Virus record (IMG/VR): IMGVR_UViG_3300036045_000066
Coordinates: 1-21,584 of that record
From: a virus
Strand: one strand, 5' to 3'
DNA: 21,584 nucleotides
The notes below the pieces were generated by a model, which was not told the DNA's origin, searched no databases, and saw only the letters and a list, made by a program, of their open reading frames with translations. Below are positions 2,107-16,412 of this stretch, in pieces (the first letter of the stretch is position 1; the number at the start of each line of letters is the position of its first letter). Both the position numbers and the translations under genes were made by a program.

Positions 2107-2133
2107 AGTTAAATTTGTGGAACAGAGTTTGAC
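2107..2133 (+). promoter_or_regulatory. Tandem AGTTTAAC-like element, copy A (before portal)
   Basis: Two imperfect 8-mers, AGTTAAAT (2107-2114) and AGTTTGAC (2126-2133), lie 19 bases apart start to start in the AT-rich gap after terL. The same arrangement occurs at 5511-5537 and 15203-15229. This copy is the most degenerate. The second 8-mer is 12 bases from GTG 2146. Function is unknown: it could be a late promoter, an activator site or a translational element. Confidence 0.4.
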
Positions 2134-2140
2134 TTTGCAA

Positions 2141-2167
2141 ATGGCGTGCCTCAAACTGGACCCGTGA
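2141..2167 (+). other. Possible 8-codon leader ORF before the portal gene
   Basis: An ATG at 2141 opens an eight-codon frame (MACLKLDP) whose TGA at 2165-2167 overlaps an in-frame portal GTG at 2164 as GTGA. The same GTGA overlap is used at 387 and at 14718. It could couple portal translation to a leader, which would make GTG 2164 the true portal start instead of GTG 2146. No strong ribosome binding site precedes any of the three starts, so this is only a possibility. Confidence 0.15.
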
Positions 2168-4764
2168 AGCTCCGTGACCGCTTGGCAGCCCTGATCGGCA
2201 GGTCGGTTTATCAGACCGACGATCCGATTCTGCCGTCGCTCGGATCGCCTCGCGTCGAGAAGGTTCGGAAGGCAATGAACGGCCAGCTCGTGCCGTTGCC
2301 CACGACGCGCACGCGCTGGTTTCTGTCCGACCTCGAGTCCGCCGAGTATCTCGCTGACCAGGGCGATCTGTCGCTTGCCGCGCAGCTCATGCGCGCGGCG
2401 ATGAAAGACGGCGTGCTTCGCGGCGTAATGTCGACGCGTACTGACGGCCTCGTGCGGTTGCCGAAGAAGTTCCGCGGCGAAGCTCAGGTCGTGCAAGCGC
2501 TCGAGCTCGGTCACGACAGCGTGCGGAGCGTCTTCGACGAAATGCTGCCGCCGGCGGAGCTCGCCGCCATGGCTGCTGACGGTCTTCTGCTCGGGGTCGC
2601 CGTGGGCGAGCTGGTGCCGGTGGTCGGGCGCGACTATCCGGTTCTCGTCAGGCTAGACCCCGAGTACCTCGTGTACCGATGGCAAGAGGATCGGTGGTAC
2701 TATCGATCGTCCGTCGGTCTGCTTCCGATCATGCCGGGTGATGGGAGGTGGGTGCTCCACACGCCGGGTGGGCGCTTGGCGCCGTGGCAGTCGGGGATCT
2801 GGCGCGCCGTCGCGTACGCATACATTCGCAAGACGCACGCGGGGCTTCATAAAGACGCTTGGGAGGCGAAGCTAGCCAACCCGGCGCGCGTCGCCGTTGC
2901 GCCGCAGGGCGCGACCGAAGCACAAAAGCAGTCGTGGTGGCGCGGGGTCATGGCGTGGGGCGTGAACAGCGTTTTCGGCGTGACGCCAGGCTACGACGTC
3001 AAGCTGCTTGAGTCGAACGGTCGCGGCTATGAGTCGTTCGAGTCGACGCAGGATCGCGCCGATCGCGAAATGATCATTTGCGTGGCGGGGCAGGTCGTCA
3101 CGACCGACGGCGGCGCGGGCTTCCAGAACAGCGACATTCACAAGTCGATCCGAAGCGACCTGATTCAGGCGACGGCCGACGCGCTCGCGTACACGGTCAA
3201 CGCGCAAGCGATCCCCGCGTTCGTTGTCGCTCGGTGGGGCGAGGCCATGCTCGAGCGCTCGGCGTGCGTCGCGTGGGACGTCACCCCGCCGAAAGACCGG
3301 AACAGCGAGGCAACGGCGACGCTTACGACCGCGAACGCGATCAAGGGCCTAGACGAGGCGTTGTCGCTGCACGACGTCGTCGCCGACGTAAAGCAGATTT
3401 GCGAACGGGCCGGCATTCCCACGCGGGTGCGCGAGCCCGGCGACGCAAAGGTCGTGACCGAAGGCGCGGAGACAGCCCCTTCAAATGACACGGTCGCGGC
3501 GACGCGTATCTGCGCGAGTGCTGCGCTGCAGCGTGTAACCGCGAGCGCGTTCACGTTCGAAGAAGACGGCGTCGAGCGGCCGGGCCCTGGTCAAGCGCCG
3601 ACCGCTTTCCGGATCTGGCGTTCGGGTCTCACGAAGACGGACAAGGGAGACAGCATTTTCAACGCGAAGGCGGCGGAAGTGCTGATGCTCGACCAGGCCA
3701 CGCGCGGCACGCTGTACTCGATCGACGTCGATCACATGAGCTTGAGCTCAAGTGCGCCGATCGATGCGCGTAAGGCGGTCGGTTGGCATCAGCTCGAGGT
3801 GCGGCAAGACGCCGCCGGCGAGCCCGAGCTGTGGGCCGTCGCCGTGCAGTGGACGGAAGCGGTCAAGGCGGGGCTCGAGCAAGAGCCGCCAGAGTGGCGC
3901 TACTTCTCGCCCGCGTACGACGTGAACCCCGAAACGCGCGAGGTCGTTCGATATCTGAACACCGCGCTCACGAATAACCCTGCCACTTGGCAGGTAACGG
4001 CGCTCGCAAACACGAGCGACGCGACGAGTAACGGCCGCATCGCGGCGAGCAACCAAGGCAATCCCATGAATTTCGAAGACGTAAAAGCCTTCGTTCGCGC
4101 GATGGCGTCGGGCGATGGTGACGAGGCAAAAACCTGCGCTGCGCTTTGCGCGGTGCTCGATGAAGGCGACAAGGAAAAGAAAGCGAAGAAGGCTTCCGAG
4201 GGCGCCGACGACGAGAAGAAGGACGACGACAAGGACTCCGAAAAGAAGGAGACCACGAAGGCGTCCGAGACGGCAGACGATGACGACGAGTCGAAGAAAA
4301 CCGCGATCGCCGCGTCGGCTACTCCGTCGAACGTGATCGACCTGGCCAAGCGCGTGCACGAGCTCGAAGCCGAGCGCGCCCGCGAGAAGGAAGCGGCCGA
4401 GATCGAGCGCCTCTTCGCGAGCCGCCCGGACTTCGCCGACGACGTCAAGGCCACGCTTGTCAAGGCGGGTGTCGACGCCGTACGTGACGCCGTCAAGACC
4501 TGGAAGCGCGGCCCCGCTGTCGCCAGCACCGTCAAGGATGCGAAGGCGGCCGTGACCGTGACCGCCACGCGCGGCGACGGCCAGGGCGAAGGCACGCAAG
4601 GCCGCGGCCTTCCTGCCGAAGAGTCCAATGCACTCAAGCTCCGCATGGGGCTGAAGACCGAAGAGACCTTCGTCGAGCACGCTGCGAACGCTTCGACGTT
4701 CCGCGCGCTCACGGCGGACGCCGCAAATCGAATTCTCGCCAGTAAGAAAGGGGCCGGCAAATGA
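2146..4764 (+). CDS. Fused portal (DUF935/Mu gp29-like), prohead protease (Mu I-like) and scaffold protein
   Basis: One uninterrupted 872-residue frame carries three head functions. Residues 1 to about 445 resemble Mu gp29/DUF935 portal proteins, the dodecameric DNA channel at the capsid vertex, including the typical DREMIICVAGQVVTTDGG stretch. Residues about 455-630 resemble the Mu I protease: an IDVDHMS motif (His530), then GWHQLE, a WAVAVQWTE strand and RYFSP (Ser588). His530 and Ser588 are the likely catalytic pair. Residues 673-720 are an extreme Lys/Glu/Asp stretch, followed by a coiled coil (about 731-761) and a basic C-terminus, as in scaffolds. In Mu, portal and I are separate genes with gpF and G between them; here they are joined and no F-like gene is visible. 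GTG 2146 is used, GTG 2164 is an alternative, and no strong Shine-Dalgarno is seen. The stop overlaps the next start as ATGA. Confidence 0.85.
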   Translation: MPQTGPVKLRDRLAALIGRSVYQTDDPILPSLGSPRVEKVRKAMNGQLVPLPTTRTRWFLSDLESAEYLADQGDLSLAAQLMRAAMKDGVLRGVMSTRTDGLVRLPKKFRGEAQVVQALELGHDSVRSVFDEMLPPAELAAMAADGLLLGVAVGELVPVVGRDYPVLVRLDPEYLVYRWQEDRWYYRSSVGLLPIMPGDGRWVLHTPGGRLAPWQSGIWRAVAYAYIRKTHAGLHKDAWEAKLANPARVAVAPQGATEAQKQSWWRGVMAWGVNSVFGVTPGYDVKLLESNGRGYESFESTQDRADREMIICVAGQVVTTDGGAGFQNSDIHKSIRSDLIQATADALAYTVNAQAIPAFVVARWGEAMLERSACVAWDVTPPKDRNSEATATLTTANAIKGLDEALSLHDVVADVKQICERAGIPTRVREPGDAKVVTEGAETAPSNDTVAATRICASAALQRVTASAFTFEEDGVERPGPGQAPTAFRIWRSGLTKTDKGDSIFNAKAAEVLMLDQATRGTLYSIDVDHMSLSSSAPIDARKAVGWHQLEVRQDAAGEPELWAVAVQWTEAVKAGLEQEPPEWRYFSPAYDVNPETREVVRYLNTALTNNPATWQVTALANTSDATSNGRIAASNQGNPMNFEDVKAFVRAMASGDGDEAKTCAALCAVLDEGDKEKKAKKASEGADDEKKDDDKDSEKKETTKASETADDDDESKKTAIAASATPSNVIDLAKRVHELEAERAREKEAAEIERLFASRPDFADDVKATLVKAGVDAVRDAVKTWKRGPAVASTVKDAKAAVTVTATRGDGQGEGTQGRGLPAEESNALKLRMGLKTEETFVEHAANASTFRALTADAANRILASKKGAGK
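4066..4764 (+). CDS. Possible internally initiated scaffold protein (Mu Z-like nested product)
   Basis: An in-frame ATG at 4066 (residue 641 of the long gene) is preceded by AAGG at 4055-4058 with a 7-base spacer. This is a better ribosome binding site than the one at the long gene's own start. Initiation here would give a free 232-residue protein starting MNFEDVKAF. It would contain the acidic-basic charged stretch, the coiled coil and the basic tail but no protease residues. Nested protease and scaffold genes in the same frame are known for lambda C/Nu3 and proposed for Mu I/Z, and free scaffold is needed in many more copies than protease or portal. The start position matches the expected domain border. 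Expression from this start is inferred. Confidence 0.5.
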   Translation: MNFEDVKAFVRAMASGDGDEAKTCAALCAVLDEGDKEKKAKKASEGADDEKKDDDKDSEKKETTKASETADDDDESKKTAIAASATPSNVIDLAKRVHELEAERAREKEAAEIERLFASRPDFADDVKATLVKAGVDAVRDAVKTWKRGPAVASTVKDAKAAVTVTATRGDGQGEGTQGRGLPAEESNALKLRMGLKTEETFVEHAANASTFRALTADAANRILASKKGAGK

Positions 4765-5504: not shown

Positions 5505-5511
5505 CGCGAGA
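5494..5511 (+). other. Short hairpin spanning the decoration gene stop codon
   Basis: TCTCGC (5494-5499) pairs with GCGAGA (5506-5511) around a six-base loop that holds the TGA stop (5502-5504). The last stem base is the first base of the AGTTTAAC element before the capsid gene. A similar but stronger hairpin encloses the stop at 15183 just before the third copy of that element. The six-pair stem is short enough to be chance on its own. Confidence 0.3.
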
Positions 5512-5537
5512 GTTTAACTCATAGAAAGAAAGTCAAC
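5511..5537 (+). promoter_or_regulatory. Tandem AGTTTAAC-like element, copy B (before major capsid)
   Basis: AGTTTAAC (5511-5518) and AAGTCAAC (5530-5537) are spaced 19 bases start to start, and the second ends exactly four bases before the capsid ATG at 5542. Copy C at 15203-15229 has the identical spacing and the identical four-base distance to its ATG. A gene that needs very high expression follows, which fits a promoter or enhancer of translation. No sigma70-like -35/-10 pair with 17-base spacing is seen. Confidence 0.5.
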
Positions 5538-5541
5538 TGTC

Positions 5542-6582
5542 ATGGCAATCACTCCCTCTTTTCTGTTCGACCTCGAGTCGAATATGCGCGTCATCCAAGA
5601 GGACGTTTACGCGAAGCTGAGCTCGAACCTTTGGTGGTCGAAGTTCACGCGCGTGATGCCTTCGAAGTCGAAGCGCGAGCTGGTTCACTGGTTGATCTCG
5701 TCCGTCACGCTCGACGACCTCGGCGTGCGCGGCGGCAACATGAATTTTGAAGAGCTGGTGTCGACCTACACTGAGTTTACGAACCGCTTCAGCGGCAAGG
5801 GGCTCAAGGTCGTCAAGAGCGAATTCGACGACCTCGACGGCTCAGGCATCGACCAGGCGACGGCGTGGTCGCGCGACATTGCGCGTATGTTCGCCTACTG
5901 GCCGCAGAAGCAGGTCACGAAGCTGATTCTGAACGGCGAGACGGGCAAGACGTACGACGGCCTCGCGTTCTTCCACCAGTCGCACTTGAATCACCCGCTC
6001 GACGCGTCGAAGGGCACTTACGCGAACGTCTTCACGGGCGCCGCTTCGGGTGCTTACCCGGGCGCGCTGAAGATCGACGCGTCGGTGTCCGCCGAGCAGG
6101 CAGCGATCAACCTCGGCAAGGCAATCGCCTACATCCGAGGTACGCTGAAGCTGCCGAACGGCGAAGACCCGCGTTACGTGAAGCCGGGAACCCTCGTCGT
6201 TCCGCCGGCGCTCAGTGACCGTGCGCAGCTGCTCACGACCGCGAAGTATATCGCGATCGCGGCGGCCGCGGGCGGCGCGGGTACGGCGGACGTCGAAGGC
6301 ATGATCCGGTCGTGGCAGCTCGGTGCCCCGATCGTCGCCGAAGAGCTCGGCTCCGCTTTCGGCGGCTCGGACGTCGACTGGTACCTGACGACCGACGAGC
6401 TCGACGGGACGCAGCTTGGCAGCTTCGTCTATATCGATCGCGACCCCTATAAGATCACCTACTACGGCAACGTGGATCAGGCGTTCTTGGATCGCGTGCA
6501 AGAGCTCGAGTGGCACGCCATGGGCCGTAACGGCTCGGGCTACGGCCACCCGTACGGCTTCTTCAAGTGCAAGGCGGCCTGA
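5542..6582 (+). CDS. Major capsid protein (Mu gpT-like)
   Basis: The 346-residue protein resembles the Mu gpT head subunit family, which assembles the HK97-fold icosahedral shell. The N-terminus MAITPSFLFDLESNM is followed by an aromatic FxxRVMPSKSKRELVHWL stretch. Further on are YWPQKQVTKLILNGE and GLAFFHQSHLNH, close to the G-x-x-F-F-xx-x-H-x-N pattern of gpT proteins, and a C-terminal stretch ending HPYGFFKCKAA. Length is slightly above Mu gpT. No N-terminal delta domain is visible; scaffolding comes from the upstream gene instead. It starts four bases after a tandem AGTTTAAC-like element and has only a weak AGAAAG purine run upstream. It is followed at once by a strong inverted repeat, which may set its mRNA level apart from the connector genes. 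Confidence 0.88.
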   Translation: MAITPSFLFDLESNMRVIQEDVYAKLSSNLWWSKFTRVMPSKSKRELVHWLISSVTLDDLGVRGGNMNFEELVSTYTEFTNRFSGKGLKVVKSEFDDLDGSGIDQATAWSRDIARMFAYWPQKQVTKLILNGETGKTYDGLAFFHQSHLNHPLDASKGTYANVFTGAASGAYPGALKIDASVSAEQAAINLGKAIAYIRGTLKLPNGEDPRYVKPGTLVVPPALSDRAQLLTTAKYIAIAAAAGGAGTADVEGMIRSWQLGAPIVAEELGSAFGGSDVDWYLTTDELDGTQLGSFVYIDRDPYKITYYGNVDQAFLDRVQELEWHAMGRNGSGYGHPYGFFKCKAA

Positions 6583-6595
6583 CGAAAGAGGAATC

Positions 6596-6649
6596 GTGGC
6601 AGCCGCACGGCGTGGGGCTGGGCACACCACGCCGTGCGGCACCGACTAA
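6596..6649 (+). CDS. Possible 17-codon ORF inside the post-capsid hairpin region
   Basis: A GTG at 6596 is preceded by AAAGAGGA (6585-6592), one of the better ribosome binding sites in the window. It opens a 17-codon frame ending in TAA at 6647-6649, seven bases before the next gene. Nearly all of it lies in the 14-bp inverted repeat, so its peptide is dictated by the hairpin. It may be a leader whose translation opens the hairpin, or the purine run may be incidental. No similarity to any known peptide is seen. Confidence 0.15.
   Translation: MAAARRGAGHTTPCGTD
6602..6640 (+). terminator. Perfect 14-bp inverted repeat after the capsid gene (terminator-like or mRNA-stability hairpin)
   Basis: GCCGCACGGCGTGG (6602-6615) is exactly complementary to CCACGCCGTGCGGC (6627-6640), with an 11-base loop. 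It lies 20 bases after the capsid stop. No T-run follows (the next bases are ACCGACTAAG), so it does not fit a classical intrinsic terminator. It could be a U-less attenuator, a 3'-end stabiliser for capsid mRNA or a protein-binding palindrome. The pairing is certain; the function is not. Confidence 0.6.
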
Positions 6650-6655
6650 GACGCA

Positions 6656-7123
6656 ATGACCGCGTATTTGGACCGCAGCGCCTTCAAGGCGCGATCGATC
6701 ATGCCGGCGACGGACGTCGACGACCTCGAGTCGATCGCCGCCGGTTGGGTCGATATGCAGCTCGAGCAGGTCTCGCGCTGGATCGATTCGCGCCTGCGGA
6801 AGCGCTACGACGCGCCGTTCGACGTCGCCACGTGCCCCGAGATCGTCAAGTCGTGGCTAACTCGGCTGGTCACGCTGCGCGCGTACCTGCGGCGTGGGGT
6901 AGACGCGACGGACGCTCAATTTGAAATGATCAAGGCCGACGCAGAAGCGGCCGCGGTCGAGATCAAAGAAGCGGCTGACTCCGCCGACGGCCTTTTCGAT
7001 CTCCCGTTGAAGGACTCGAGTAAAGCGACCGGCGTCTCGCAAGGCGGCCCGTTCGTTTATTCGGAGGCTTCCCCTTACGATTTCATCGACGTGCAACGCG
7101 AGGCGGTGCGCGATGGCCAATAA
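6656..7123 (+). CDS. Head-tail connector protein, DUF1320/Mu gp36-like
   Basis: The 155-residue product fits the gp36/DUF1320 family: MTAYLDRSAF start, an early helix with ESIAAGWVDMQLEQVSRWIDSRLRKRYDAPF split across residues 23-54, then a long helical arm. The tail ends with a serine-rich stretch and SEASPYDFIDVQREAV. Proteins of this family sit just after the capsid gene in Mu-like phages and are thought to form a ring under the portal. The ATG at 6656 is the first after the inverted repeat; no strong Shine-Dalgarno is seen (TAAGACGCA). Its end overlaps the next gene by 11 bases, so the two are probably translated together. Confidence 0.7.
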   Translation: MTAYLDRSAFKARSIMPATDVDDLESIAAGWVDMQLEQVSRWIDSRLRKRYDAPFDVATCPEIVKSWLTRLVTLRAYLRRGVDATDAQFEMIKADAEAAAVEIKEAADSADGLFDLPLKDSSKATGVSQGGPFVYSEASPYDFIDVQREAVRDGQ

Positions 7124-7517
7124 CGCCGCCGCTTTCGCCGCGCTAGACGAGCAGATCCGCCGGCTCCGCGCCGTCGCCGGCCTGGCTGAAGACGCCGCAC
7201 CGCATGTTGCGGCCGCGCTGAAGGAAGAGCTCGACGCGCAGATAGCGCGCGGGCAAGGCCCTGACGGCAAGCCGTGGCTCAAGCGCGACGACGGCGGCCG
7301 CCCGCTGCGCAATGCCGCGGAGGCGACGACGGTCAAGGCTGTGGGCACGGCAATCGTTGCCCGTGTCACGGGGCATCATGCCTACCACCACAGGGGCCAG
7401 ACCCGCGGCAACGTCGTGCGGCAGATCTTGCCGACCGGCAAGCTGACGGATCCTTTCACGCGCGCGATCAAGCGCGTGCTTGACGAGCGATACGCGGCGC
7501 TCATGGGGGCGCGCTAA
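7113..7517 (+). CDS. Virion morphogenesis/tail completion protein (Mu gpG-like)
   Basis: The 134-residue protein has the layout of the phage virion morphogenesis family (Mu gpG, P2 gpS): an Ala/Glu-rich N-terminal helix, then the signature GPDGKPWLK (about residues 49-57). A HHAYHHRGQTRG segment follows, then RQILPTG, and a C-terminal helix IKRVLDERYAALM. The GPDG-x-x-W loop and the HxxHHxG stretch are the main grounds for the call. Such proteins act at the head-tail joint or tail end. In Mu the gene lies between portal and protease; here it lies after gp36, so the order is rearranged. It overlaps its upstream neighbour by 11 bases and its TAA overlaps the next ATG (TAATG). Confidence 0.72.
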   Translation: MANNAAAFAALDEQIRRLRAVAGLAEDAAPHVAAALKEELDAQIARGQGPDGKPWLKRDDGGRPLRNAAEATTVKAVGTAIVARVTGHHAYHHRGQTRGNVVRQILPTGKLTDPFTRAIKRVLDERYAALMGAR

Positions 7518-8134
7518 TGGCCGTCGTCTTTTCGCTAGAGAAGCTGATCGACGACGTCGTCGCGCGTTTCGCGACGGAAGGCCCGTGGCTCGTCGAGCCC
7601 GTGCTCGACCCGCCCACGCCGGGCACGCCGATCCCGAACGTCTTCGGCTGGAAGAAGCCCGAGCAGCAAATGCTGCGCGGCAATCGGATCATTTGGGTTC
7701 CGGGCGACGCGGAGAACGGGGAGGCCGGTGAGTACCTGCCTTCGCGGCATTCCGGCGAGGCGGATGCGCGGTTTCTCGCGCGACTCGGCGAGCGCTTCAC
7801 GGTGTACATCGTCGCGGAGAACAAGGCGCAGCCGGAGAACGAACGCGCGCAATACAACGCTTGCCGGCTGCTGCACGACGCTTGGTTTCGCGCCGTCTAC
7901 TTGGCGGCGCACGGTACTTTTAAGCTCGACAAGCCGCAATGGCTTGGCGACGCGAAGGAACGCCGCCGCGGCGCGGCGTTGCGCGTGCTCGGCACGATCG
8001 ACGCGCCGATTCCGGATGTAGTTCACGATTTCGTGGCGGCAGATGCACACGCCGAAGTCGGCGTCGCGCTGCACGCCTCATTTGACGACGAAGACGAAGA
8101 AGAAACGGTCGACACGACCGAGGTGGCACCATGA
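7517..8134 (+). CDS. Probable tail terminator/tail completion protein
   Basis: The 205-residue product lies between the morphogenesis protein and the sheath, the usual place of the tail terminator that caps the tube and joins the head. It shows an N-terminal helix (LEKLIDDVVARFATEG), a WxP loop region, strands RIIWVPGD and RFTVYIVAE, a helix ENERAQYNACRLLHDAW, and strands GAALRVLGTIDAPI. This alternation fits the alpha/beta fold of lambda gpU or Mu gp37-like terminators. The C-terminus is strongly acidic (DDEDEEE). Start ATG 7517 overlaps the previous TAA, and its stop overlaps the sheath ATG (ATGA). Function rests on position and fold pattern. Confidence 0.5.
   Translation: MAVVFSLEKLIDDVVARFATEGPWLVEPVLDPPTPGTPIPNVFGWKKPEQQMLRGNRIIWVPGDAENGEAGEYLPSRHSGEADARFLARLGERFTVYIVAENKAQPENERAQYNACRLLHDAWFRAVYLAAHGTFKLDKPQWLGDAKERRRGAALRVLGTIDAPIPDVVHDFVAADAHAEVGVALHASFDDEDEEETVDTTEVAP
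8120..8125 (+). promoter_or_regulatory. Strong ribosome binding site of the sheath gene
   Basis: GAGGTG ends five bases before the sheath ATG at 8131. It is inside the end of the upstream gene, so the sheath, which is needed in many copies, is both coupled and well initiated. Confidence 0.6.
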
Positions 8135-9603
8135 CTCAACCGAAAATCGCGATCACGGAACAAGACGGCGCCCTAGGCGTGCTGCCCCCGAGCGCCGGCG
8201 CGCTTTTCGCCGTCGCCGGCGTGGCGACGGCCGGGCCCCTCGACACGCCGACCACGTTCGGCCGCGTCAAGGATCTCGTCGCGGCGTTTTCAATCGCGGG
8301 TGTCAATCCCGGGCCGGCCATCGAGGCCGCCGCTCACTACATCGAGCGCTACGGCCGACCGGTCGTCTTCACGCGCATTGCCGGCGCGACCCCAGGCACG
8401 ATGGGCACGATCGACGTCAGCGAAATGACGGGCACGTCAGTCGCTTCGATCGCCGCGAGTCCAGCGCCGAACGACGACGCCGACGTCGTCGTGTACTTCC
8501 CGACCGGCGGCACCGTTGGCACGACCGGGATCGTGTACCAGGTGAGTCTTGATGGCGGCGTAAACTTCGGCGCGAAAACGGCGCTCGGCACGGCAAACAA
8601 CCTGACGGTTCCGGCCCTCGGCACGCTGCAATTCAATTTTGCGGCAGGCACGATCGTGTCGGGCAGCAGGCTGAGGGCCCGCGCCAATGCGCCTATGTGG
8701 ACTTCCATGGGGCTCGGCTCCGCGCTTGACGCGCTGAAGGTTTGGATCGGTACGTGGGAGATCTTGCACGTCGTCGGCAACCTCGACGCGACGCTCTTCG
8801 ACGCCGTCGAATCGAAGATTCAGGCAATGGCGGCAGAGGGCAAGGATCATCCGTGGATCGGCAGCTTCCGCATGCCGAACGCGGGCGAGACGGAGGCCGC
8901 CTATAAAACGGCGTTTGACACGGCGTTTGGCGCGAAGTCGACGACGTACGGCACCGTGTGTGCCGGCGCCGAGGATCTGATCTCGAGCGTCAGCGGTCGC
9001 AAGTACCGCCGGCCCTGGTCCTTCGCATACGCCGCGCGCGAGGCGAGCGTTTCTGAAGAGGTCAATACGGCGGATGTTAATCTCGGCGCTTTGCCGGGCG
9101 ACATTCGAAACGACAACGGCAACGTGAAGCATCACGACGAATCGGCCAACCCTGGCCTCGACGACTCGCGCGCGTGCGTCGCTCGTACGTGGGATGACTT
9201 CCCCGGCGTGTACGTCAACCGCCCGCGCCTGCTGTCGAGCGAGACCAGCGACTTTCAGCTCATGCCGCACCGGCGTGTGATGAACCTGGGGAAGAAGGCG
9301 CTCCGCGCGTACCTTCAGCGCCGGCTCAACAAGCCGATCCGCGTCGACAAGAAAACGGGCTTCATTCTCGAGGAAGAGGCGCAAGAGATCGAAGCGGGCG
9401 CAAACGCCGTGCTTCGCGACGTGCTCCTACAGAAGCCGAAGGCGAGCGACGCCTTCTTCGTGTTGTCGCGGACCGACAACGTGCTTTCCACCAAAACCCT
9501 GACCGGCGAGTGCCGAATCGTGCCGCTCGCTTACCCCGAGACGATCAACGTCGATCCGATCGCGTTCTTCAATCCGGCGCTGCAGATCGCGGCGGCCGCG
9601 TAA
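8131..9603 (+). CDS. Contractile tail sheath protein
   Basis: The 490-residue protein matches tail sheath architecture. The N-terminus has AGALFAVAGVATAGPLDTP and FGRVKDLVAAF with a following HYIERYGRPVVFTRIAG, typical of the first sheath domain. Residues about 95-190 form an inserted beta domain (VVVYFPTGGTVGTTGIVYQVSLDG split into strands). The C-terminal half contains WSFAYAAREAS, the ARTWDDFPGVYVNRPRL stretch and an arginine-rich MPHRRVMNLGKKALR. It ends with an arm of LAYPETINVDPIAFFNP, as expected for the sheath handshake region. It resembles DUF2586-type sheaths. The protein wraps the tube and contracts on infection. ATG 8131 has a GAGGTG ribosome binding site and overlaps the upstream stop. 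Confidence 0.88.
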   Translation: MTQPKIAITEQDGALGVLPPSAGALFAVAGVATAGPLDTPTTFGRVKDLVAAFSIAGVNPGPAIEAAAHYIERYGRPVVFTRIAGATPGTMGTIDVSEMTGTSVASIAASPAPNDDADVVVYFPTGGTVGTTGIVYQVSLDGGVNFGAKTALGTANNLTVPALGTLQFNFAAGTIVSGSRLRARANAPMWTSMGLGSALDALKVWIGTWEILHVVGNLDATLFDAVESKIQAMAAEGKDHPWIGSFRMPNAGETEAAYKTAFDTAFGAKSTTYGTVCAGAEDLISSVSGRKYRRPWSFAYAAREASVSEEVNTADVNLGALPGDIRNDNGNVKHHDESANPGLDDSRACVARTWDDFPGVYVNRPRLLSSETSDFQLMPHRRVMNLGKKALRAYLQRRLNKPIRVDKKTGFILEEEAQEIEAGANAVLRDVLLQKPKASDAFFVLSRTDNVLSTKTLTGECRIVPLAYPETINVDPIAFFNPALQIAAAA

Positions 9604-9615
9604 CGGAGTAGTCAC

Positions 9616-10086
9616 ATGGCTGGCGATCAAGTACGAGTGCAGGGCAGGCTAGTTAGCTGGGCCTCCAACATTTTCAAGATGAACGGCGTGCGCTACTACG
9701 GCGTGACTTCGGTCAGCTGGGATCAGTCGCGCACGCGCACGCTCGGCTACGGTCAGAACCGATCAGGGCGGCCGCGCGGCAAGACGGGCGGCAAGTACGA
9801 GCCGGGCGTGCTCAAGATCAAGATGCACACGGATACTGCCATCCAAATGCGCAAAGATCTCGCCGCGCTCGCGCCCGACCTCAAGTCGTACGGCGAAACC
9901 GAAGTGCCGATCACGAACCAGACGGCGGAGGGCAACATCAATTCGACCGCGGAATTTATCCGCTGTTGCCTAGCGAAGGAAACGCCAAGCGTCGAGGAGT
10001 CCGGCGAGCCGTCGCAAGAAGAGTGGGAGTTTTCGACGGAGGGAATCGTTACGGACGGTTTGAGCTTGTTCGATCAGCGTCAGTGA
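9616..10086 (+). CDS. Tail tube protein
   Basis: The 156-residue protein directly follows the sheath, where myophages keep the tube subunit through which DNA passes. Visible features fit a tube beta-sandwich: GRLVSWASNIFKMNGVRYYG at the start, a loop rich in Arg and Gly (GYGQNRSGRPRGKTGG), then strands around LKIKMHTDTAIQMRKDLAAL and EEWEFSTEGIVTDGLSLF. Length is normal for the family (Mu gpM is smaller, others 150-170). ATG 9616 has GGAG about nine bases upstream. A 16-base gap separates it from the chaperone gene. Confidence 0.8.
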   Translation: MAGDQVRVQGRLVSWASNIFKMNGVRYYGVTSVSWDQSRTRTLGYGQNRSGRPRGKTGGKYEPGVLKIKMHTDTAIQMRKDLAALAPDLKSYGETEVPITNQTAEGNINSTAEFIRCCLAKETPSVEESGEPSQEEWEFSTEGIVTDGLSLFDQRQ

Positions 10087-10102
10087 CCGTTGAGGTGCCC
10101 AA

Positions 10103-10528
10103 ATGGAAAGTCTGGAAGATCTGAAGAAGCGAGCGAAGGCGGCGGCGGATAAGGTCGCCGCGAAGGTCGCGGCCGCCGACGAAGCGCGCGAGCGTCGGCA
10201 GCTTGAAGGCGAGATCAAGCTCGCCGAGCTCGACGAGACGCTCGGCGTCCGCGGCCGCGATTACGAGGCCGTGTTCAGCCTGCGAACGGGTGACATGGTC
10301 GTCGTGAAAGCCCCGGGCGAAGTGCACTGGCAAAAGGTCAGCGCGAAGGGGCTCGACGGCGAGCTGTCACTAAAGGACATGCTCGAGCTCGTCGCCGCGT
10401 GCCTCGCCTACCCGGACCCGCCGGCCTTCGGCAAGATCTGTGAGCACACGCCCGCGATCATCGACGACGCCGTCGCGGCGATCACGCGGCTTGCGGGCGC
10501 GCGCGAGGCGAAGAAGGGAAAAGGGTAA
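10103..10528 (+). CDS. Tail assembly chaperone, 0-frame product (lambda G-like)
   Basis: The 141-residue protein lies between tube and tape measure, the fixed place of the tail assembly chaperone pair. It begins with an Ala/Lys-rich helix (LKKRAKAAADKVAAKVAAA). It then carries a compact domain with RDYEAVFSLRTGDMVVVKAPG and VSAKGLDGELSLKDMLELVAACLAYP, and ends in a basic tail AREAKKGKG. The chaperone would coat the tape measure during tail assembly. Its last codons form GGGAAAA in the right phase for a -1 slip, so part of the translation products should continue into the frame ending at 10716. No strong Shine-Dalgarno is visible before ATG 10103 (GAGG at 10093-10096). Confidence 0.75.
   Translation: MESLEDLKKRAKAAADKVAAKVAAADEARERRQLEGEIKLAELDETLGVRGRDYEAVFSLRTGDMVVVKAPGEVHWQKVSAKGLDGELSLKDMLELVAACLAYPDPPAFGKICEHTPAIIDDAVAAITRLAGAREAKKGKG
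10516..10522 (+). promoter_or_regulatory. Programmed -1 frameshift slippery site GGGAAAA
   Basis: The heptamer reads G GGA AAA in the chaperone frame, the X XXY YYZ form that allows both tRNAs to re-pair after slipping one base back. It is one sense codon before the 0-frame stop TAA (10526-10528). A GAGG at 10505-10508 could act as an upstream Shine-Dalgarno stimulator. The -1 frame is then open to 10716. Conserved frameshifts at this place are known in lambda G/GT and many other tailed phages. Confidence 0.8.
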
Positions 10529-10716
10529 CGGAGCTGCGCGAAGAGGTGCGGAAGAACTTGACTGAAGCCGGCGAATGTTTCGGTCGGTTCTTCCGCGGCG
10601 CAGCACCGGAGTCAGTCACCGATCAGGCCCGCCAGCAAGTAGGCGGCGAGCTATTCGCCAAGCTCGCCCAGAACCTTGACGAATTGGTTTCGGCACTGAG
10701 GTCGCAGAATGGCTGA
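10522..10716 (+). CDS. -1 frame extension of the tail assembly chaperone (T-like part of a GT fusion)
   Basis: After the slip, reading resumes at AGG 10522 and stays open for 64 codons to TGA 10714-10716, giving a 204-residue fusion. The extension reads RVTELREEVRKNLTEAGE, then CFGRFFRG and a helical DQARQQVGGELFAKLAQNLDELVSAL. It fills exactly the space between the 0-frame stop and the tape measure and overlaps the tape measure start (10709) by eight bases. In lambda the equivalent GT extension recruits the tape measure. GTG 10546 could in principle start a separate protein, but the slippery site favours the fusion. Confidence 0.75.
   Translation, partial: RVTELREEVRKNLTEAGECFGRFFRGAAPESVTDQARQQVGGELFAKLAQNLDELVSALRSQNG
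10548..10596 (+). other. 10-bp stem downstream of the frameshift site
   Basis: GCGGAAGAAC (10548-10557) is exactly complementary to GTTCTTCCGC (10587-10596), enclosing a 29-base loop. It starts 25 bases after the slippery heptamer, farther than the usual 5-9 base spacer of frameshift stimulators. It may still slow ribosomes or occlude the tape measure start region. It lies wholly inside the -1 frame extension. Confidence 0.35.
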
Positions 10717-12568
10717 CGCGGTATTTTCATTCGAGCTCGAAGGCAACGGCGACGCCGCGCTCGAGCAAGCCTCCGCACTCGAGCAGTTGCGCGACCGCCT
10801 GACTCAGGGCACGGCAGCGCTGCGCGGTATGCAGAGCAGCCTAAACGCTATGAAGGGCAGCGCGCACGCGAACGGCCCCGCGTTCAAGCAGCTGAAGGAC
10901 CAGATCGCCGCCCAGAAAGCGGCGCTTGCCGGCGCGCACGCGCGCTTCGTCGAGCTCGGCGGCGACTTCAAAAACCTGAAGCGTCCGGCCGTCGACGCAA
11001 AGGCCGGCTTCGAGCAATTCCTAGAGAGCGCGCGCGGCTCGAGCGGCCCGCTTGGGCGGCTCGTCGGCGGACTCGAGAAACTGAAGGGGCTAGGCGCGCG
11101 TGGCGCCATGGCAGCCGGCCTGGCCGGCATCGGGGCGGCGCTGCTCGCGCTCGCGGCCGCCGCGACGGTTGCAACGGCGGCGCTATTCAAGTTCGGCCTG
11201 GCCATGGCTGACGCGGTGCGCGCCGAGAGGCTGCAGCTGGAAGGTCTGACGAAGATCCGTAACTGGTGGGGTCTGGCCGCGGACAAGGCCGGCTTTCTTC
11301 AGGACACGATTTCAAAAGTGTCGGGTCAAGTCGCGCTCGGGCGCGATCAGATCAACGGCATGGCGACGAGCCTGTACAAGGCGGGTTTGCGTGGCGGCAG
11401 TCTGCAGCACGCGCTCGAGGGCGTCGCCATTGCGACCGCCGCCGCCGGCGAAGAGCAGGGCGAGTTTTACAAGGCGTGGTTTCTCGGCGCGTCGCGGAGC
11501 AGCGGCGCGACGAAGAAGCTCGCCGACGACATCAAAGCGCGCTTCGGCGGCGTGGCGAAAGCGCAAATGCTGTCGCTTGGCGTGCAGGCGAAAAAGCTCC
11601 GCGAAAATTTTCAGCAGCTTTTCAGCGGGCTACGGATTGAGCGCTTTCTTGAGGCGCTGCACGACGTCACGGATCTGTTCAGTCAAAACACGTTCAGCGG
11701 TCGCGCGCTGAAGACGATTCTTGAAACTGTGTTTCAGCCGATGGTCGACTTCGCGACCGGATACGGGATCTACTTTAAGCGCTTCTTTCAGGGCCTGATC
11801 ATCGGCGCGCAGCTGCTTGTGTTGGGTGTGCTCAAGCTTCGTAATTGGTTTCGAAAGACGTTCGGCGATTCGGAGATCCTGAAGGGCATAGACAAGCAAA
11901 AGATCGCTGTTTACGCGGGCGCGTTCGCGGTTGGAGCGCTTGCTGGTGCGTTCGTCGGCCTTGCCGCCGCGATTGCCGTCGTCGTTGCTCCGTTTGTTTA
12001 CCTTGCATATCGTATCGCGAAGTTTGTTAAAGACGTGTACGACGCCTATGCGGCTTTCCGTGCGATTGACTGGACTGCGGCGGGGCGTGCGCTCGTTGAT
12101 GGTATTGCGGCTGGTATCCGCAACGGCGCGCAATGGGTTATCAGCGCTGTGAAGAATCTGGGTTCACAAGCGCTGAAGGCCTTCAAAGAAAAGCTCGGCA
12201 TCGCCAGCCCTTCGCGCGTCTTCGCGAGGCTTGGCGTTGAAATGCCTCGCGGTGCCGCCGTTGGCATTCAGGCGGGCGCGCCGCAGCTGACCGCGGCAAC
12301 GCGGCGCATGGCCAATGAATCGAGCGCCGCATACGAAGCCGCTCCGCCGCTCACGGCAGCCCCCGTTTCGCCCGTTGTCGCGCCGGCCGCGGGCGGTCGT
12401 CGCGGCGCCATCGTGTCCCCTACGCTCAACCTGACGATCAATGTCGCGGCGCCGGCGGACGGCAAGACGTCAACGCTAGTCGAAGATATCCGGCGCGTGG
12501 TGCGCGAGGAGATCCCGGCCATGTTCGAGAGCGTCGCGATTCATCTCGGTGCTGAGGTGCCGGCGTAA
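10709..12568 (+). CDS. Tape measure protein
   Basis: The 619-residue protein lies after the chaperone pair and sets tail length. The first 125 residues are mostly helical and rich in Ala, Gln and Lys. Hydrophobic segments follow at about residues 130-170 (Ala/Gly-rich, GLAGIGAALLALAAAATV), 362-375 (GLIIGAQLLVLGVL) and 401-440 (GALAGAFVGLAAAIAVVVAP). These could help membrane passage of DNA after ejection. Residues about 490-525 carry LGIASPSRVFARLGVEMPRGAAVGIQ split over the typical tape measure C-terminal motif. A Pro/Ala linker and a short beta end follow. By the usual 0.15 nm per residue the tail would be near 90 nm. ATG 10709 overlaps the chaperone extension; its TAA overlaps the next ATG. 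Confidence 0.87.
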   Translation: MADAVFSFELEGNGDAALEQASALEQLRDRLTQGTAALRGMQSSLNAMKGSAHANGPAFKQLKDQIAAQKAALAGAHARFVELGGDFKNLKRPAVDAKAGFEQFLESARGSSGPLGRLVGGLEKLKGLGARGAMAAGLAGIGAALLALAAAATVATAALFKFGLAMADAVRAERLQLEGLTKIRNWWGLAADKAGFLQDTISKVSGQVALGRDQINGMATSLYKAGLRGGSLQHALEGVAIATAAAGEEQGEFYKAWFLGASRSSGATKKLADDIKARFGGVAKAQMLSLGVQAKKLRENFQQLFSGLRIERFLEALHDVTDLFSQNTFSGRALKTILETVFQPMVDFATGYGIYFKRFFQGLIIGAQLLVLGVLKLRNWFRKTFGDSEILKGIDKQKIAVYAGAFAVGALAGAFVGLAAAIAVVVAPFVYLAYRIAKFVKDVYDAYAAFRAIDWTAAGRALVDGIAAGIRNGAQWVISAVKNLGSQALKAFKEKLGIASPSRVFARLGVEMPRGAAVGIQAGAPQLTAATRRMANESSAAYEAAPPLTAAPVSPVVAPAAGGRRGAIVSPTLNLTINVAAPADGKTSTLVEDIRRVVREEIPAMFESVAIHLGAEVPA

Positions 12569-13092
12569 TGGCACGTCTCACGTCCCAGGGATACGGCGAT
12601 TTCGTCCTACTCGGCGGCCTCAAGTCGCCGGGCTTGTGCGACGTGCAGGGCGCGGGCTCGCCGCGCAAGTGGGATCAAGCAGCTGGCTACGGTTTGAGCG
12701 GTGCCGTGTCGCGCTTTCTCGGCAACGCGCTCTCGGAGTTCTCTATCAAGTTCCGGCTGTACGGCGATCCGAAGGTTCCAGACCCCGACTGGCAAGCTTG
12801 GCAGGCCTTCGAAGCCGTGCTCATGAAGCCGCCGGCGGGAAAGCACCCGCGTGCGCTCGACATTTGGCACCCAGTGCTCGAGCGGTTGAAGATCAAGTCG
12901 GTTGGCGTCGTCGACGTGGGCCAGCCGTATCAGTCTGACGACGGCGAGTGGACGATCGAGGTCAAATTCATCGAGTATCGGCGTCCGAAAATCACACTTG
13001 CGAAGCCGGAGGCCGCCAAAGCCACGCCGACTGATCCCTATGATCGGATCATTGATTCGCTCGACCAGCAGATCAAAGAGGCCGCGAAATGA
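12568..13092 (+). CDS. Tail/baseplate protein after the tape measure (possible tube initiator)
   Basis: I do not recognise this 174-residue family with certainty. It has a Gly-rich beta start (GYGDFVLLGGLKSPG), a SPRKWDQAAGYGLSGAVSRF stretch, strands FSIKFRLYGDP, a WQAWQAF helix and WTIEVKFIEYRRPKITL. The C-terminus is helical (DRIIDSLDQQIKEAAK). Its place between tape measure and hub is that of Mu gpN or the tube-initiator/LysM baseplate proteins, and its mixed beta pattern fits a hub-tube adaptor. It is much shorter than Mu gpN, so it is not a full-length member of that family. TAATG overlap upstream and ATGA overlap downstream (13089-13092) tie it to its neighbours. Confidence 0.45.
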   Translation: MARLTSQGYGDFVLLGGLKSPGLCDVQGAGSPRKWDQAAGYGLSGAVSRFLGNALSEFSIKFRLYGDPKVPDPDWQAWQAFEAVLMKPPAGKHPRALDIWHPVLERLKIKSVGVVDVGQPYQSDDGEWTIEVKFIEYRRPKITLAKPEAAKATPTDPYDRIIDSLDQQIKEAAK

Positions 13093-14228
13093 CAGCGGTC
13101 GTCACGCTCGGCGGAGAGAGCGTTTCTAGCGTGCGCCTGCACGTGCCGAACGTGGGCCCGTGGTTTGCTGACGTCGACTTCGTCGATTCACCGACGTTCA
13201 GCGGCCGACAGACACTCAAGATTGGCGAGCGAAGTTTCGTGGGCACGATTGATCCCCGTGAAGATGGTACTTTTGGTGGCCGTCGGCGCTGTAGGCTGGT
13301 CGCCGGCGCGGGCGGCTGGGGTAAGGCGCTGAAAGCGAAGCCGTATCACAACGATGCCGGCGTCAAAGCGCGCGCGATCGCCGACGACGCTGCGCGCGAG
13401 GTCGGAGAAACGATCGGCACGTTCACGCCGGGCGCGGATCGCGTCGGTGTTGACTACGTGCGCGAGGCACGTGAGGCGTCGACGGCGCTCGAAGACGCTG
13501 CGGGGGGCGTGCCCTGGTGGGTTGATTACGCGGGCGTGACGCATGTCAATCAACGACCGACCACGAAACCGGCGGCTGGCGCGTACGATCTGATCGAGTA
13601 CGCCGCGCGAGAGCGCGTTGCACTGCTTGTCGTTGACGATCTTGCCGCTGTGGGCATTGGCAGCGTGCTTTCCGAGCGGCTTGACGCACCGCAAACGGTC
13701 CGCGAGCTCGAGATTACGATCAGCAGTGACGGGATTCGCGTGCGTGCGTGGTGCGGCGGCGTACCTGCGGCGCGCGGGCGGCTTGCCGGTGCGCTTCAAG
13801 CCATCGTTGAACGGCTGATGAGCGGCCGCTTGTTTGGCAAATACCGTTATCGAGTCGTGAAAGTTGCCGGCGACGCGCGGTTGACGCTGCAGGCGGTACA
13901 CAAACGGCCGGGTTTGCCGGACATGGTGCCGATCGCCGTGTGGCCAGGCTTCGCCGCCGGCGAGGTGAATCCGCGCGAGGCGTCCGAAGCTCTCGTCGAG
14001 TTTATCGAGGGTGACCGCGCGCAGCCGATCGTGACCGGATTCGCAACCGAAACCGGCGGCGTCGAGGTTGCGTATAAGGGCGCGAGCGTCGAGATCCTGC
14101 TGCCGCCGTGCCTTTTTTCCGGGACGGTAGCGGGTGCGCCCGCCACTGGCGTTCTTACGTTCCCCCTGACGAAGACGCTGGGCGCGGTCACCGGCGGCAC
14201 GCCGCACATGAAGGTCAAGGTCGACTGA
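13089..14228 (+). CDS. Baseplate hub protein with spike-like OB region (Mu gp44/gp45, P2 D/V-like)
   Basis: The 379-residue protein is the best candidate for the central hub. Residues 1-80 form beta strands (VTLGGESVSSVRLHVPNVG, DFVDSPTF). Residues about 95-175 have a helix VKARAIADDAAREVGETI and a WWVDYAGVTHV strand pair, resembling hub domains of the gp27/gpD type. Residues about 240-318 read FGKYRYRVVKV to VEFIEGDRAQPIVTGFA, a pattern of the OB-fold in gpV/gp45 spike proteins. The C-terminus ends in GAVTGGTPHMKVKVD. No separate long spike gene is seen next to it, so hub and spike base may be combined. Exact family is uncertain. Confidence 0.6.
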   Translation: MTAVVTLGGESVSSVRLHVPNVGPWFADVDFVDSPTFSGRQTLKIGERSFVGTIDPREDGTFGGRRRCRLVAGAGGWGKALKAKPYHNDAGVKARAIADDAAREVGETIGTFTPGADRVGVDYVREAREASTALEDAAGGVPWWVDYAGVTHVNQRPTTKPAAGAYDLIEYAARERVALLVVDDLAAVGIGSVLSERLDAPQTVRELEITISSDGIRVRAWCGGVPAARGRLAGALQAIVERLMSGRLFGKYRYRVVKVAGDARLTLQAVHKRPGLPDMVPIAVWPGFAAGEVNPREASEALVEFIEGDRAQPIVTGFATETGGVEVAYKGASVEILLPPCLFSGTVAGAPATGVLTFPLTKTLGAVTGGTPHMKVKVD

Positions 14229-14229
14229 A

Positions 14230-14721
14230 ATGTTGACGTATGTCGGATCGCTCAGTTTGTCGGCGGCTGTTCCCGCGGTCGCCACTGTTTTCGCGTCGGC
14301 GATCGCCGATCTGGAAGCGAGGATCGCCGCGTTAGGTGCGGCGATCCCGACGTTCACGCCGCCGACGGTGCAGCTCGAGCTCGCTAAATCGATTCTGGCG
14401 GCAATCGAGGCCAACATTGCGCTAGGCATAACGCCGCCTTCGCTCGACCTACAGATCGGTCTATTCCTGGCGCAGATCGCGGAGCTGCAGGCTGCGCTAC
14501 AGATCGTGCTCGACGTCAAGGCGCTGTTTGCCGCGGCGGGCGTGCACGTTTATGTTTACTCCGGCACAGCCGGGGATTTCGGGGCGGATTTGACGACGGA
14601 GCTAGCCGCAGGCTTCCCGGGCGGCACCGGTCCGACGCAGTCAACTAACGCGATCGTGCTCGCGACGACGATCGGCGCGACGTGGTCAGCAATGGCCCAA
14701 GTGTTTCAGGTGACACCGTGA
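14230..14721 (+). CDS. Unrecognised helical baseplate-region protein
   Basis: I do not recognise this 163-residue protein. It is very poor in charged residues and rich in Ala, Leu, Ile and Thr. Helices include VFASAIADLEARIAALGAAI, LELAKSILAAIEANI and LFLAQIAELQAALQIVLDVKALF, separated by proline-containing links (TFTPP, GITPPS). A short beta end (VHVYVYSG) precedes a Gly/Thr-rich C-terminus. The heptad-like Leu spacing suggests a coiled bundle rather than a membrane protein, although one hydrophobic helix is long enough to span a membrane. It lies between hub and gp25-like genes with one base separating it from the hub stop, and its TGA overlaps the next GTG. A structural role in hub or spike assembly is inferred from position. 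Confidence 0.6.
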   Translation: MLTYVGSLSLSAAVPAVATVFASAIADLEARIAALGAAIPTFTPPTVQLELAKSILAAIEANIALGITPPSLDLQIGLFLAQIAELQAALQIVLDVKALFAAAGVHVYVYSGTAGDFGADLTTELAAGFPGGTGPTQSTNAIVLATTIGATWSAMAQVFQVTP

Positions 14722-15185
14722 CAATACTCGAAGATATTCAGGCAGAGGTCAGCGCGCTATTACGCGAGGTCGAGACGCCCGCGGCCGTCGGGTACGGCGT
14801 CGATCTTAGTTGCGTCGCCGATCTGCACGACGACTTGCGCGAGGTCGATCCAAATTCACCCGAAGGGATCGGCGAGGCCGTGCTGCGGCGCTGGACGTGC
14901 CCACGCGGGCAGAACGCAGACGATCCCGACTACGGCCGCGACGTGCGCGCGATTCTAAACCGTGGACTCACGCAAGCCGAGCTGCTTGGCGAGGCTGGCT
15001 TGCTGCGGGCCGAGGCCGAGAAAGAAGACACAGTCGACACGTGTGATGTGACACTGACGCTGAACGTAGCGGATCGCCTGGTTTCGATCGTCGGCAAGAT
15101 CACGCCGGTTGACCCGACGATCGAGCCGTTCCGCTTCGTGGCAGCCGTGACGGACGGCGCCACCATGCTGGAAATTCAGCGGTAA
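14718..15185 (+). CDS. Baseplate wedge protein, gp25/W-like (Mu gp46-like position)
   Basis: The 155-residue product from GTG 14718 has the pattern of gp25-like wedge proteins: YGVDLSCVADLHDDLREVD, GIGEAVLRRWTCPRG, then DYGRDVRAILNRGLTQAELLG. A helix and closing strands DVTLTLNVADRLVSIVGKITP follow. These proteins start sheath assembly at the baseplate rim. An in-frame ATG at 14682 exists, but it would overlap the upstream gene by 40 bases. GTG 14718 overlaps it by only four (GTGA) and has AGGTG at 14708-14712, so I prefer it. The stop lies in the loop of a nine-base-pair hairpin, followed by the AT-rich gap before the J-like gene. Confidence 0.68.
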   Translation: MTILEDIQAEVSALLREVETPAAVGYGVDLSCVADLHDDLREVDPNSPEGIGEAVLRRWTCPRGQNADDPDYGRDVRAILNRGLTQAELLGEAGLLRAEAEKEDTVDTCDVTLTLNVADRLVSIVGKITPVDPTIEPFRFVAAVTDGATMLEIQR

Positions 15186-15195
15186 ACGCTGAATT
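15173..15195 (+). other. Nine-bp hairpin with the wedge gene stop codon in its loop
   Basis: AATTCAGCG (15173-15181) pairs perfectly with CGCTGAATT (15187-15195) around a five-base loop GTAAA that holds the TAA stop. Six bases after it copy C of the tandem AGTTTAAC element begins. No T-run follows, so it is a weak candidate for an intrinsic terminator. It may be a processing or stability stem or a protein site. Confidence 0.55.
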
Positions 15196-15202
15196 CCTGG
15201 AC

Positions 15203-15229
15203 AGTTTAACATTGACATGAGAATTTAAC
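15203..15229 (+). promoter_or_regulatory. Tandem AGTTTAAC-like element, copy C (before J-like gene)
   Basis: AGTTTAAC (15203-15210) and AATTTAAC (15222-15229) are 19 bases apart start to start, and four bases separate the second from ATG 15234. Spacing and distance to the start are the same as before the capsid gene. There is no Shine-Dalgarno sequence in the gap, so the element may take the place of one or produce a leaderless or short-leader transcript. Confidence 0.5.
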
Positions 15230-15233
15230 GACG

Positions 15234-16412
15234 ATGACCGTCTCGATCGACGATCTAACCAAGCCCGTGACGCGCGACGAGGCGAAGGCGTCGATTTACG
15301 ACGCGCTCGGCATTGTCGGCGTCAACACAACGGCATGGCGTCCAGGCGCAGTCGTGCGGACGATTATCGCGGTCGTCGCCATCCTGTTCAGCGCGTGCAC
15401 ACGTTTGATCGCGGGCATCGCGAAGGCGGGCTTCTTGGAGTACGCGGCCAACGACTGGCTGACGCTGGTTGCGCGGCATGTGTACGGCGTCGAGCGGCTC
15501 GAGGCAACCTTCGGAACGGGCGCGCTGCGGCTAGTCAACGGCGGAGGCGGCGTGTTCAACAACGTCGCGCCCGGCGATCTGATCGTCCGAAACCCGGTTA
15601 CGAATAAGACGTACACAAACACGACCTTGTTTAGTTTGGGCGCCGGCGCGACGCTCGACATTCCGATCGTCGCGCAAGAGGCGGGCTCGGCGAGCACTTC
15701 CGGCGTTGGCGCGATTACTGGATTCGTCACGCCGCTGATCAATGTCACCTGCACCAACACGACGGCCGTTGTTGGCGCGGATGCAGAGGGCGACGCGCCG
15801 CTTCGTCTGCGTTGCCGTGAGGTGCTCGGCGCGCGGTCCGCGAACGGCCCCGCCGATGCGCACGCGAGCATTGCACGAAGCGCGAAGCGCGCGGACGGCT
15901 CAGCGATTGGCGTCACCCGAGTGCGAACCGTCAAAGACGGCCGAGGCAACGGCTATATTTATTTAGCGACCGCGGTCGGAGGGGTGCCTGGCGACGCAGA
16001 GAATATCGCGACGGATCTCGGGATAATCAACGATCGGATTCAACGGCAGGCGGCGCCGCTCGGGTTCACCGCGCACGTGCTCAGCGCGACGCCGCTGTCG
16101 ATCAACGTTTCGTATCGCGTTTGGTTGCTCGACACCTCTGGCCTGACACACGCGCAGCTTGCTGCGCTGATTGCGACGGCGCTCGGTAACTACTTTGCCG
16201 CCGCGCCGATCGGCGGGTACGTAATCGACGGCCAACCAGGTCGGATCTACCTTGAGGACATCAAGGGGGCGATCAAGGCCGTTCGCCCCGAAATCTTCCA
16301 CGTCGAGATCGACGGTCTGACGGCGGATATTGACGTGGGTCCGAATTTCGCGCCGGTGCTTGGTGCGTCAATTCCAGTTGCGATCACGGAATCGCAGCAG
16401 AGGGTTGTGTAG
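15234..16412 (+). CDS. Baseplate assembly protein J (Mu gp47-like)
   Basis: The 392-residue protein fits the baseplate J family, the main wedge component linking sheath, hub and fibres. The N-terminal third is helical with an ALGIVGVNTTAWRPGAVVRT stretch and a hydrophobic helix. Residues about 90-190 form the beta domain with VAPGDLIVRNP and PIVAQEAGSAST. Residues about 190-260 hold the family's conserved LRLRCREVLGARSANGPADA, VTRVRTVKDGRGNGYIYL and GGVPG. Near residues 320-345 is NYFAAAPIGGYVIDGQPGRI, followed by YLEDIKGAI, matching the PIGG...YLxDI signature. ATG 15234 lacks a Shine-Dalgarno sequence and sits four bases after a tandem repeat element. The TAG stop overlaps the next GTG. Confidence 0.87.
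   Translation: MTVSIDDLTKPVTRDEAKASIYDALGIVGVNTTAWRPGAVVRTIIAVVAILFSACTRLIAGIAKAGFLEYAANDWLTLVARHVYGVERLEATFGTGALRLVNGGGGVFNNVAPGDLIVRNPVTNKTYTNTTLFSLGAGATLDIPIVAQEAGSASTSGVGAITGFVTPLINVTCTNTTAVVGADAEGDAPLRLRCREVLGARSANGPADAHASIARSAKRADGSAIGVTRVRTVKDGRGNGYIYLATAVGGVPGDAENIATDLGIINDRIQRQAAPLGFTAHVLSATPLSINVSYRVWLLDTSGLTHAQLAALIATALGNYFAAAPIGGYVIDGQPGRIYLEDIKGAIKAVRPEIFHVEIDGLTADIDVGPNFAPVLGASIPVAITESQQRVV

Follow-up and report, generated by a model that had tools for sequence, protein, structure and literature searches.

Paired boxes at fixed spacing before three structural gene starts of a phage with Mu-like gene order, probably of myxobacteria

Three structural gene units of an uncultured phage open behind pairs of short AGTTTAAC-like boxes set 19 nt apart, and the comparisons reported below with shuffled sequences, real intergenic gaps and related loci indicate that these paired boxes are a real, lineage-specific start element. 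The boxes were found in the window, by which we mean the whole viral record analysed (21,584 nt, or 21.6 kb; IMG/VR type), which represents only part of the genome. The window has a GC content of ~63% and a Mu-like structural gene order of large terminase, portal, decoration-like protein, major capsid, sheath, tube, tail chaperone, tape measure, and baseplate J (putative places for the unlabelled genes). At the protein level, no relative of the capsid was found in the GenBank phage set; a large uncultured family related to the window phage is present in IMG/VR. Prophage-like relatives occur in Myxococcota genomes, a Labilithrix MAG among them, which makes a myxobacterium the probable host.

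Two further features of the gene layout were recorded. The portal and its protease/scaffold-like region form one long frame in the window (2164-4764) and two genes in the relative L004. The tail assembly chaperone (10103-10715) likely uses a programmed -1 frameshift at the slippery heptamer GGGAAAA (10516-10522), and its extension is open as far as the tape measure start; the chaperone of L003, the closest relative, has the GGGAAAA heptamer in the same frame as the window, as well as the extension.

The paired boxes and the starts they adjoin

An earlier sequence-only reading had proposed that the gaps before portal, capsid, and J each hold two AGTTTAAC-like 8-mers at a distance of 19 nt start to start, and this was confirmed at 2107/2126, 5511/5530, and 15203/15222 (Table 1). 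Identity to AGTTTAAC was 6/8 and 7/8 for the two portal words, 8/8 and 5/8 for the capsid words, the second copy thus being weak, and 8/8 and 7/8 for the J words, all of them on the + strand. AGTTTAAC is nearly palindromic and the boxes approximate AGTTNAACT, with T as the ninth base in 4/6 box copies and in the two L003 boxes; symmetry is perfect in the best copy, AGTT-T-AACT. No pair was present in the fourth long gap of the window (6583-6655).

As the same reading had stated, the second 8-mer ends four bases before the ATGs of capsid and J. Its wider claim, that the pair precedes portal and that all three genes share one geometry, stands with a correction. The pair is indeed there, but the adjoining ATG at 2141 lies 7 nt, not 4, past the second word and opens a short leader ORF, whereas the portal start by homology (~60 relatives) is GTG 2164, not 2146. 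The TGA of this leader, MACLKLDP*, overlaps the portal GTG. With the leader ATG taken as the target, each of the three pairs lies 4-7 nt ahead of an ATG. Leaders of this kind recur in the family: a six-codon leader starting exactly 17 nt upstream of the portal start was found in seven distinct relatives (L055, L100, L107, L022, L113, L031, L092), and the leaders in these relatives (6-8 codons including the window) overlap the portal start through an xTGA. Among xTGA portal starts in relatives, some leader ORF ended there in 13/23 versus 7.4 expected. A family-wide TAGTT in portal gaps was considered as a box homologue and dropped, since its TAG often terminates a long reading frame upstream, presumably terL.

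Shine-Dalgarno (SD) energies at the boxed starts were -1.2 (capsid), -2.7 (J), and -3.3 kcal/mol (portal leader), as against -5.8 to -10.8 kcal/mol at nearly all other starts of the window, so that the earlier remark on the lack of a good SD at capsid and J is borne out. Other weak SD starts were g6656 (-1.7), the coupled portal GTG (-2.9), and g115 (-4.0 kcal/mol). In the wider family, all 35 distinct capsid starts (35/35) had an SD of -4.6 kcal/mol or better; the capsid SD is weak in the window and in L003 (-3.0 kcal/mol) because AGAAAGAAAG occupies the SD place. The box shows no pairing with the host anti-SD, which is canonical.

Table 1. Features of the window discussed in the text
Feature	Position	Strand	Remarks
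Tandem pair before portal leader ORF	2107..2133	+	AGTTAAAT-N11-AGTTTGAC
Leader ORF, 8 codons	2141..2167	+	MACLKLDP*; stop overlaps portal GTG (GTGA); analogous short leaders in relatives
Portal gene, fused to protease/scaffold-like region	2164..4764	+	likely start GTG 2164, homologous starts in ~60 relatives
Tandem pair before capsid	5511..5537	+	AGTTTAAC-N11-AAGTCAAC
Purine tract AGAAAGAAAG	5523..5532	+	10/10 kept in L003; at the relatives' SD place (GAAAGGA/GAGGA)
Major capsid protein gene	5542..6582	+	PHROG 371
14-bp hairpin just 3' of capsid gene	6602..6640	+	GCCGCACGGCGTGG/CCACGCCGTGCGGC; terminator-like, without U-run
Hairpin just before J pair	15170..15197	+	GGAAaTTCAGCG-gtaaa-CGCTGAATTCC; stop codon of upstream gene in loop; z -4.4
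Tandem pair before J	15203..15229	+	AGTTTAAC-N11-AATTTAAC; ends 4 nt before ATG
J-like baseplate gene	15234..16412	+	PHROG 6, baseplate wedge

Distribution, chance, and conservation

At a threshold of at least 13/16 to AGTTTAAC-N11-AGTTTAAC, the + strand of the window matched at 2107, 5511, and 15203 only, all in gaps, and one further 13/16 match on the - strand was the portal site read backwards, a consequence of the near-palindromic word. With spacings other than 19, in the range 8 to 40, 0-1 sites reached 13/16 in the window, and no pair reached at least 13/16 in the relatives' loci (3.47 Mb counting both strands). The pattern is therefore not as frequent inside genes as in gaps; equal frequency is what the sequence-only reading had named as refuting the element, so that this check, made on the window and the relatives' loci, was favourable. 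The search pattern suggested in that reading, with a 7-letter second word, undercounts.

Agreement between the gaps was measured in a free test over all three, allowing any 8-mer at any spacing of 8-30 and giving a score out of 48. The observed score of 41/48 was matched by 0/3000 dinucleotide shuffles (mean 33.2, sd 1.05, max 39) and by 0/1500 triples of real gaps from relatives (max 40). In pairwise free tests, P was <0.001 for capsid and J, 0.003 for portal and J, and 0.05 for portal and capsid, while the single-gap score was significant in none of the three gaps; the signal is agreement between gaps, strongest for capsid and J. These results, together with the scan at 13/16 or better, uphold the judgement that the element is unlikely to be chance, with some selection remaining in the chance tests because the three gaps had been chosen by the reader who first proposed it.

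Exact AGTTTAAC occurred four times in 1.66 Mb (window and relatives): twice in the window, once in the homologous L003 capsid gap, and once at a distant locus. The pair matched once in 379 Myxococcota genomes and is thus not a host promoter or host regulatory motif of Myxococcota. A stricter scan of viral contigs gave six matches, all in phages of 32-39% GC without a real ORF; a looser scan of such contigs, with 14 letters, was dropped because AT-rich chance matches saturated it.

Conservation could be followed in L003, the sole close relative (capsid ~80% identical), there being no close relatives that cover J or portal. The capsid gap was identical between window and L003 at 28/37 positions compared with 54.5% at 4-fold (neutral) sites of the same genes (P=0.007). 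The first capsid box was kept at 9/9 positions in the block AGTTTAACT, and AACTGTC, the last bases before the capsid ATG, at 7/7, whereas the second box changed at 2/8 positions to AAGCAAAC in L003, which leaves it at 4/8 to AGTTTAAC. Three parts of the gap are thus under constraint, namely the first box, the purine spacer, and the final bases ahead of the capsid ATG; the second box as a whole does not show it.

Beyond L003, the pair is not a family feature: 77/79 J homologues are without such a gap, and an ordinary SD precedes the capsids of 35 relatives. In the window the J gap measures 48 nt, versus -17 to 12 nt in 77/79 distinct J starts, which overlap or abut the preceding gene. As a separate observation, CTAACA was enriched before relatives' capsids (5/32 versus 0.2 expected; 7/34 in another count) (L025, L029, L031, L032, L038, L045, and others). 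It lies ~19-31 nt from the capsid ATG, roughly where the first box stands in the window, and is possibly an ancestral start signal.

The boxes apparently sit at the edges of separate transcription units, given that the J gap comes with its own hairpin and that the capsid unit ends in a hairpin whose arms covary between window and L003. In the J gap, a strong hairpin is followed by the pair and then by J. The hairpin 3' of capsid shows compensatory changes in L003 (about 1722-1760), where the arms match, and most relatives have a strong hairpin after the capsid gene. An RNA hairpin formed between the two boxes was also considered; it was plausible in the portal gap, not in the other two, and was set aside.

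Possible modes of action

Late promoter, activator operator, and translation element, the three options listed in the sequence-only reading, were a reasonable choice; sequence cannot separate them, and a near-leaderless late promoter leads. We tentatively favour, at a little short of an even chance, a late promoter that is specific to the phage, combined with a start module and giving a very short leader. The promoter, alone or together with the site of a phage-encoded specificity factor, would be formed by two AGTTTAAC(T) boxes at a distance of 19 bp, with transcripts starting at the ATG or within a few nucleotides of it. Acting in transcription and read by a phage factor, the element would start the portal operon (via the coupled leader ORF), the capsid gene, and the J/baseplate operon separately and without a normal SD. 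A late promoter is favoured because it explains the fixed box-ATG geometry, the missing SD, why the boxes lie at unit edges, and why they are absent from relatives and, bar one match, from 379 host-phylum genomes. No host sigma-70 TTGACA-N16-18-TATAAT-like hexamers (-35/-10) were found in the three gaps, which, together with the pair not being a host motif, argues for a phage-specific factor. Counting against a promoter, a repeat of 19 nt falls short of the usual -35/-10 spacing, and L003 keeps the purine spacer and AACTGTC while its second box is at 4/8, which also fits a weak ribosome site. No phage sigma or RNA polymerase gene was visible in the window, the record being part of a genome; among 25 long relatives, one had a sigma-70 region 2 and none a Mor/C activator (PF08765), for which the window itself is partial. 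That the boxes define a new promoter class, in which two AGTTTAAC boxes 19 bp apart and a phage-encoded factor would give leaderless portal leader, capsid, and baseplate mRNAs in place of the relatives' capsid SD, is unlikely.

An RNA-level element and a dimer operator would fit almost as well as a late promoter. In the former, which we regard as possible though rather unlikely, AGUUUAAC repeats in the mRNA leader would be recognised by an RNA-binding protein of phage or host, or directly by the ribosome, and would control how the SD-less genes are translated. Several observations are in line with this: the second box lies at the SD place, 4, 4, and 7 nt from the ATG, weak SDs are found mainly around boxed starts, L003 keeps the purine tract and AACTGTC, and cluster K mycobacteriophages have start-associated repeats 3-7 nt from starts (PMC3203893). 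However, the canonical host anti-SD offers no pairing with the box, no RNA fold conserved across the three gaps was found, and the hairpin and gap that came along with the J pair rather resemble a new transcription unit.

Rather less probable than this is a tandem operator, in which a dimeric repressor or activator of the phage would occupy each pseudo-palindromic box, AGTTNAACT, in the manner of stoperators or immunity-repressor sites. The perfect symmetry of the best copy, the ninth-base T noted above, and the fact that the sites score on the - strand too all favour such a site, but a second box ending 4 nt before the ATG leaves no space for a separate downstream promoter, and the window has three sites only, without family conservation.

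A mostly ordinary explanation, with one AT-rich start signal per gap and second copies arising by chance or as an eroded SD-spacer, is improbable. It would account for the second capsid copy (5/8 in the window, 4/8 in L003) and for the lack of a significant single-gap score, but not for the outcome of the three-gap free test against shuffles and real triples, nor for second copies of 7/8 before J and portal. Finally, antitermination sites of the rrn boxA type (UUUAAC core), next to a hairpin resembling boxB, are very improbable: the first J box reads TTTAACA and follows a hairpin with a GUAAA loop, but a boxA-like site beside 16S in two related host genomes is (G)(G/T)TCTTTGAAG (by eye) with a TCTTTGA core, which the GTTTAAC of the element does not match, and Rfam finds nothing.

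Relation to known phage elements and significance

The nearest published analogue is the SAS/ESAS system of cluster K mycobacteriophages, short phage-group-private repeats that lie in one orientation 3-7 nt before the starts of several genes and whose mechanism is unknown (PMC3203893). The window boxes likewise share one orientation (+) and lie 4, 4, and 7 nt from a start codon. By comparison of their features, the element is not a member of this system, because SAS contain an SD and precede non-structural genes: SAS is a single 13-mer, GGGATAGGAGCCC, with an SD core (AGGAG), whereas the window element is AT-rich with SD energies of -1.2 to -3.3 and its pairs precede structural genes. ESAS, moreover, are inverted repeats, in contrast to a direct pair at fixed spacing. 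The late promoters of phiKZ-like phages (AR9 AACA-N6-TA/G; phiKZ TATG; PMC5312081) resemble the element as phage-specific short motifs at late genes, with phage transcripts that are often leaderless. They differ in being single short motifs without a 19-nt pair, used by a phage multisubunit RNA polymerase in giant phages unrelated to the window phage.

Late promoters of Mu, with their Mor/C activators, lie at several places inside the structural region, as do the window pairs within a Mu-like gene order, but the Mu sites are unlike the window boxes in sequence and no Mor-family gene was found in the 25 long relatives. Stoperators are single asymmetric 13-bp sites, many per genome, repressor-bound and not tied to start codons, which sets them apart from three pairs tied to starts. 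The likeness is that those of cluster A mycobacteriophages are short, phage-private, and oriented with transcription (PMC3203893, PMC4351075), as are the window boxes.

In the literature collection searched, nothing addressed late-gene transcription in this uncultured myxobacterial phage group, for which the element offers specific sites open to testing. A recent, phage-private start signal would here have replaced the SD that every examined wider relative keeps before capsid, and may thus allow late phage expression to be compared before and after such rewiring.
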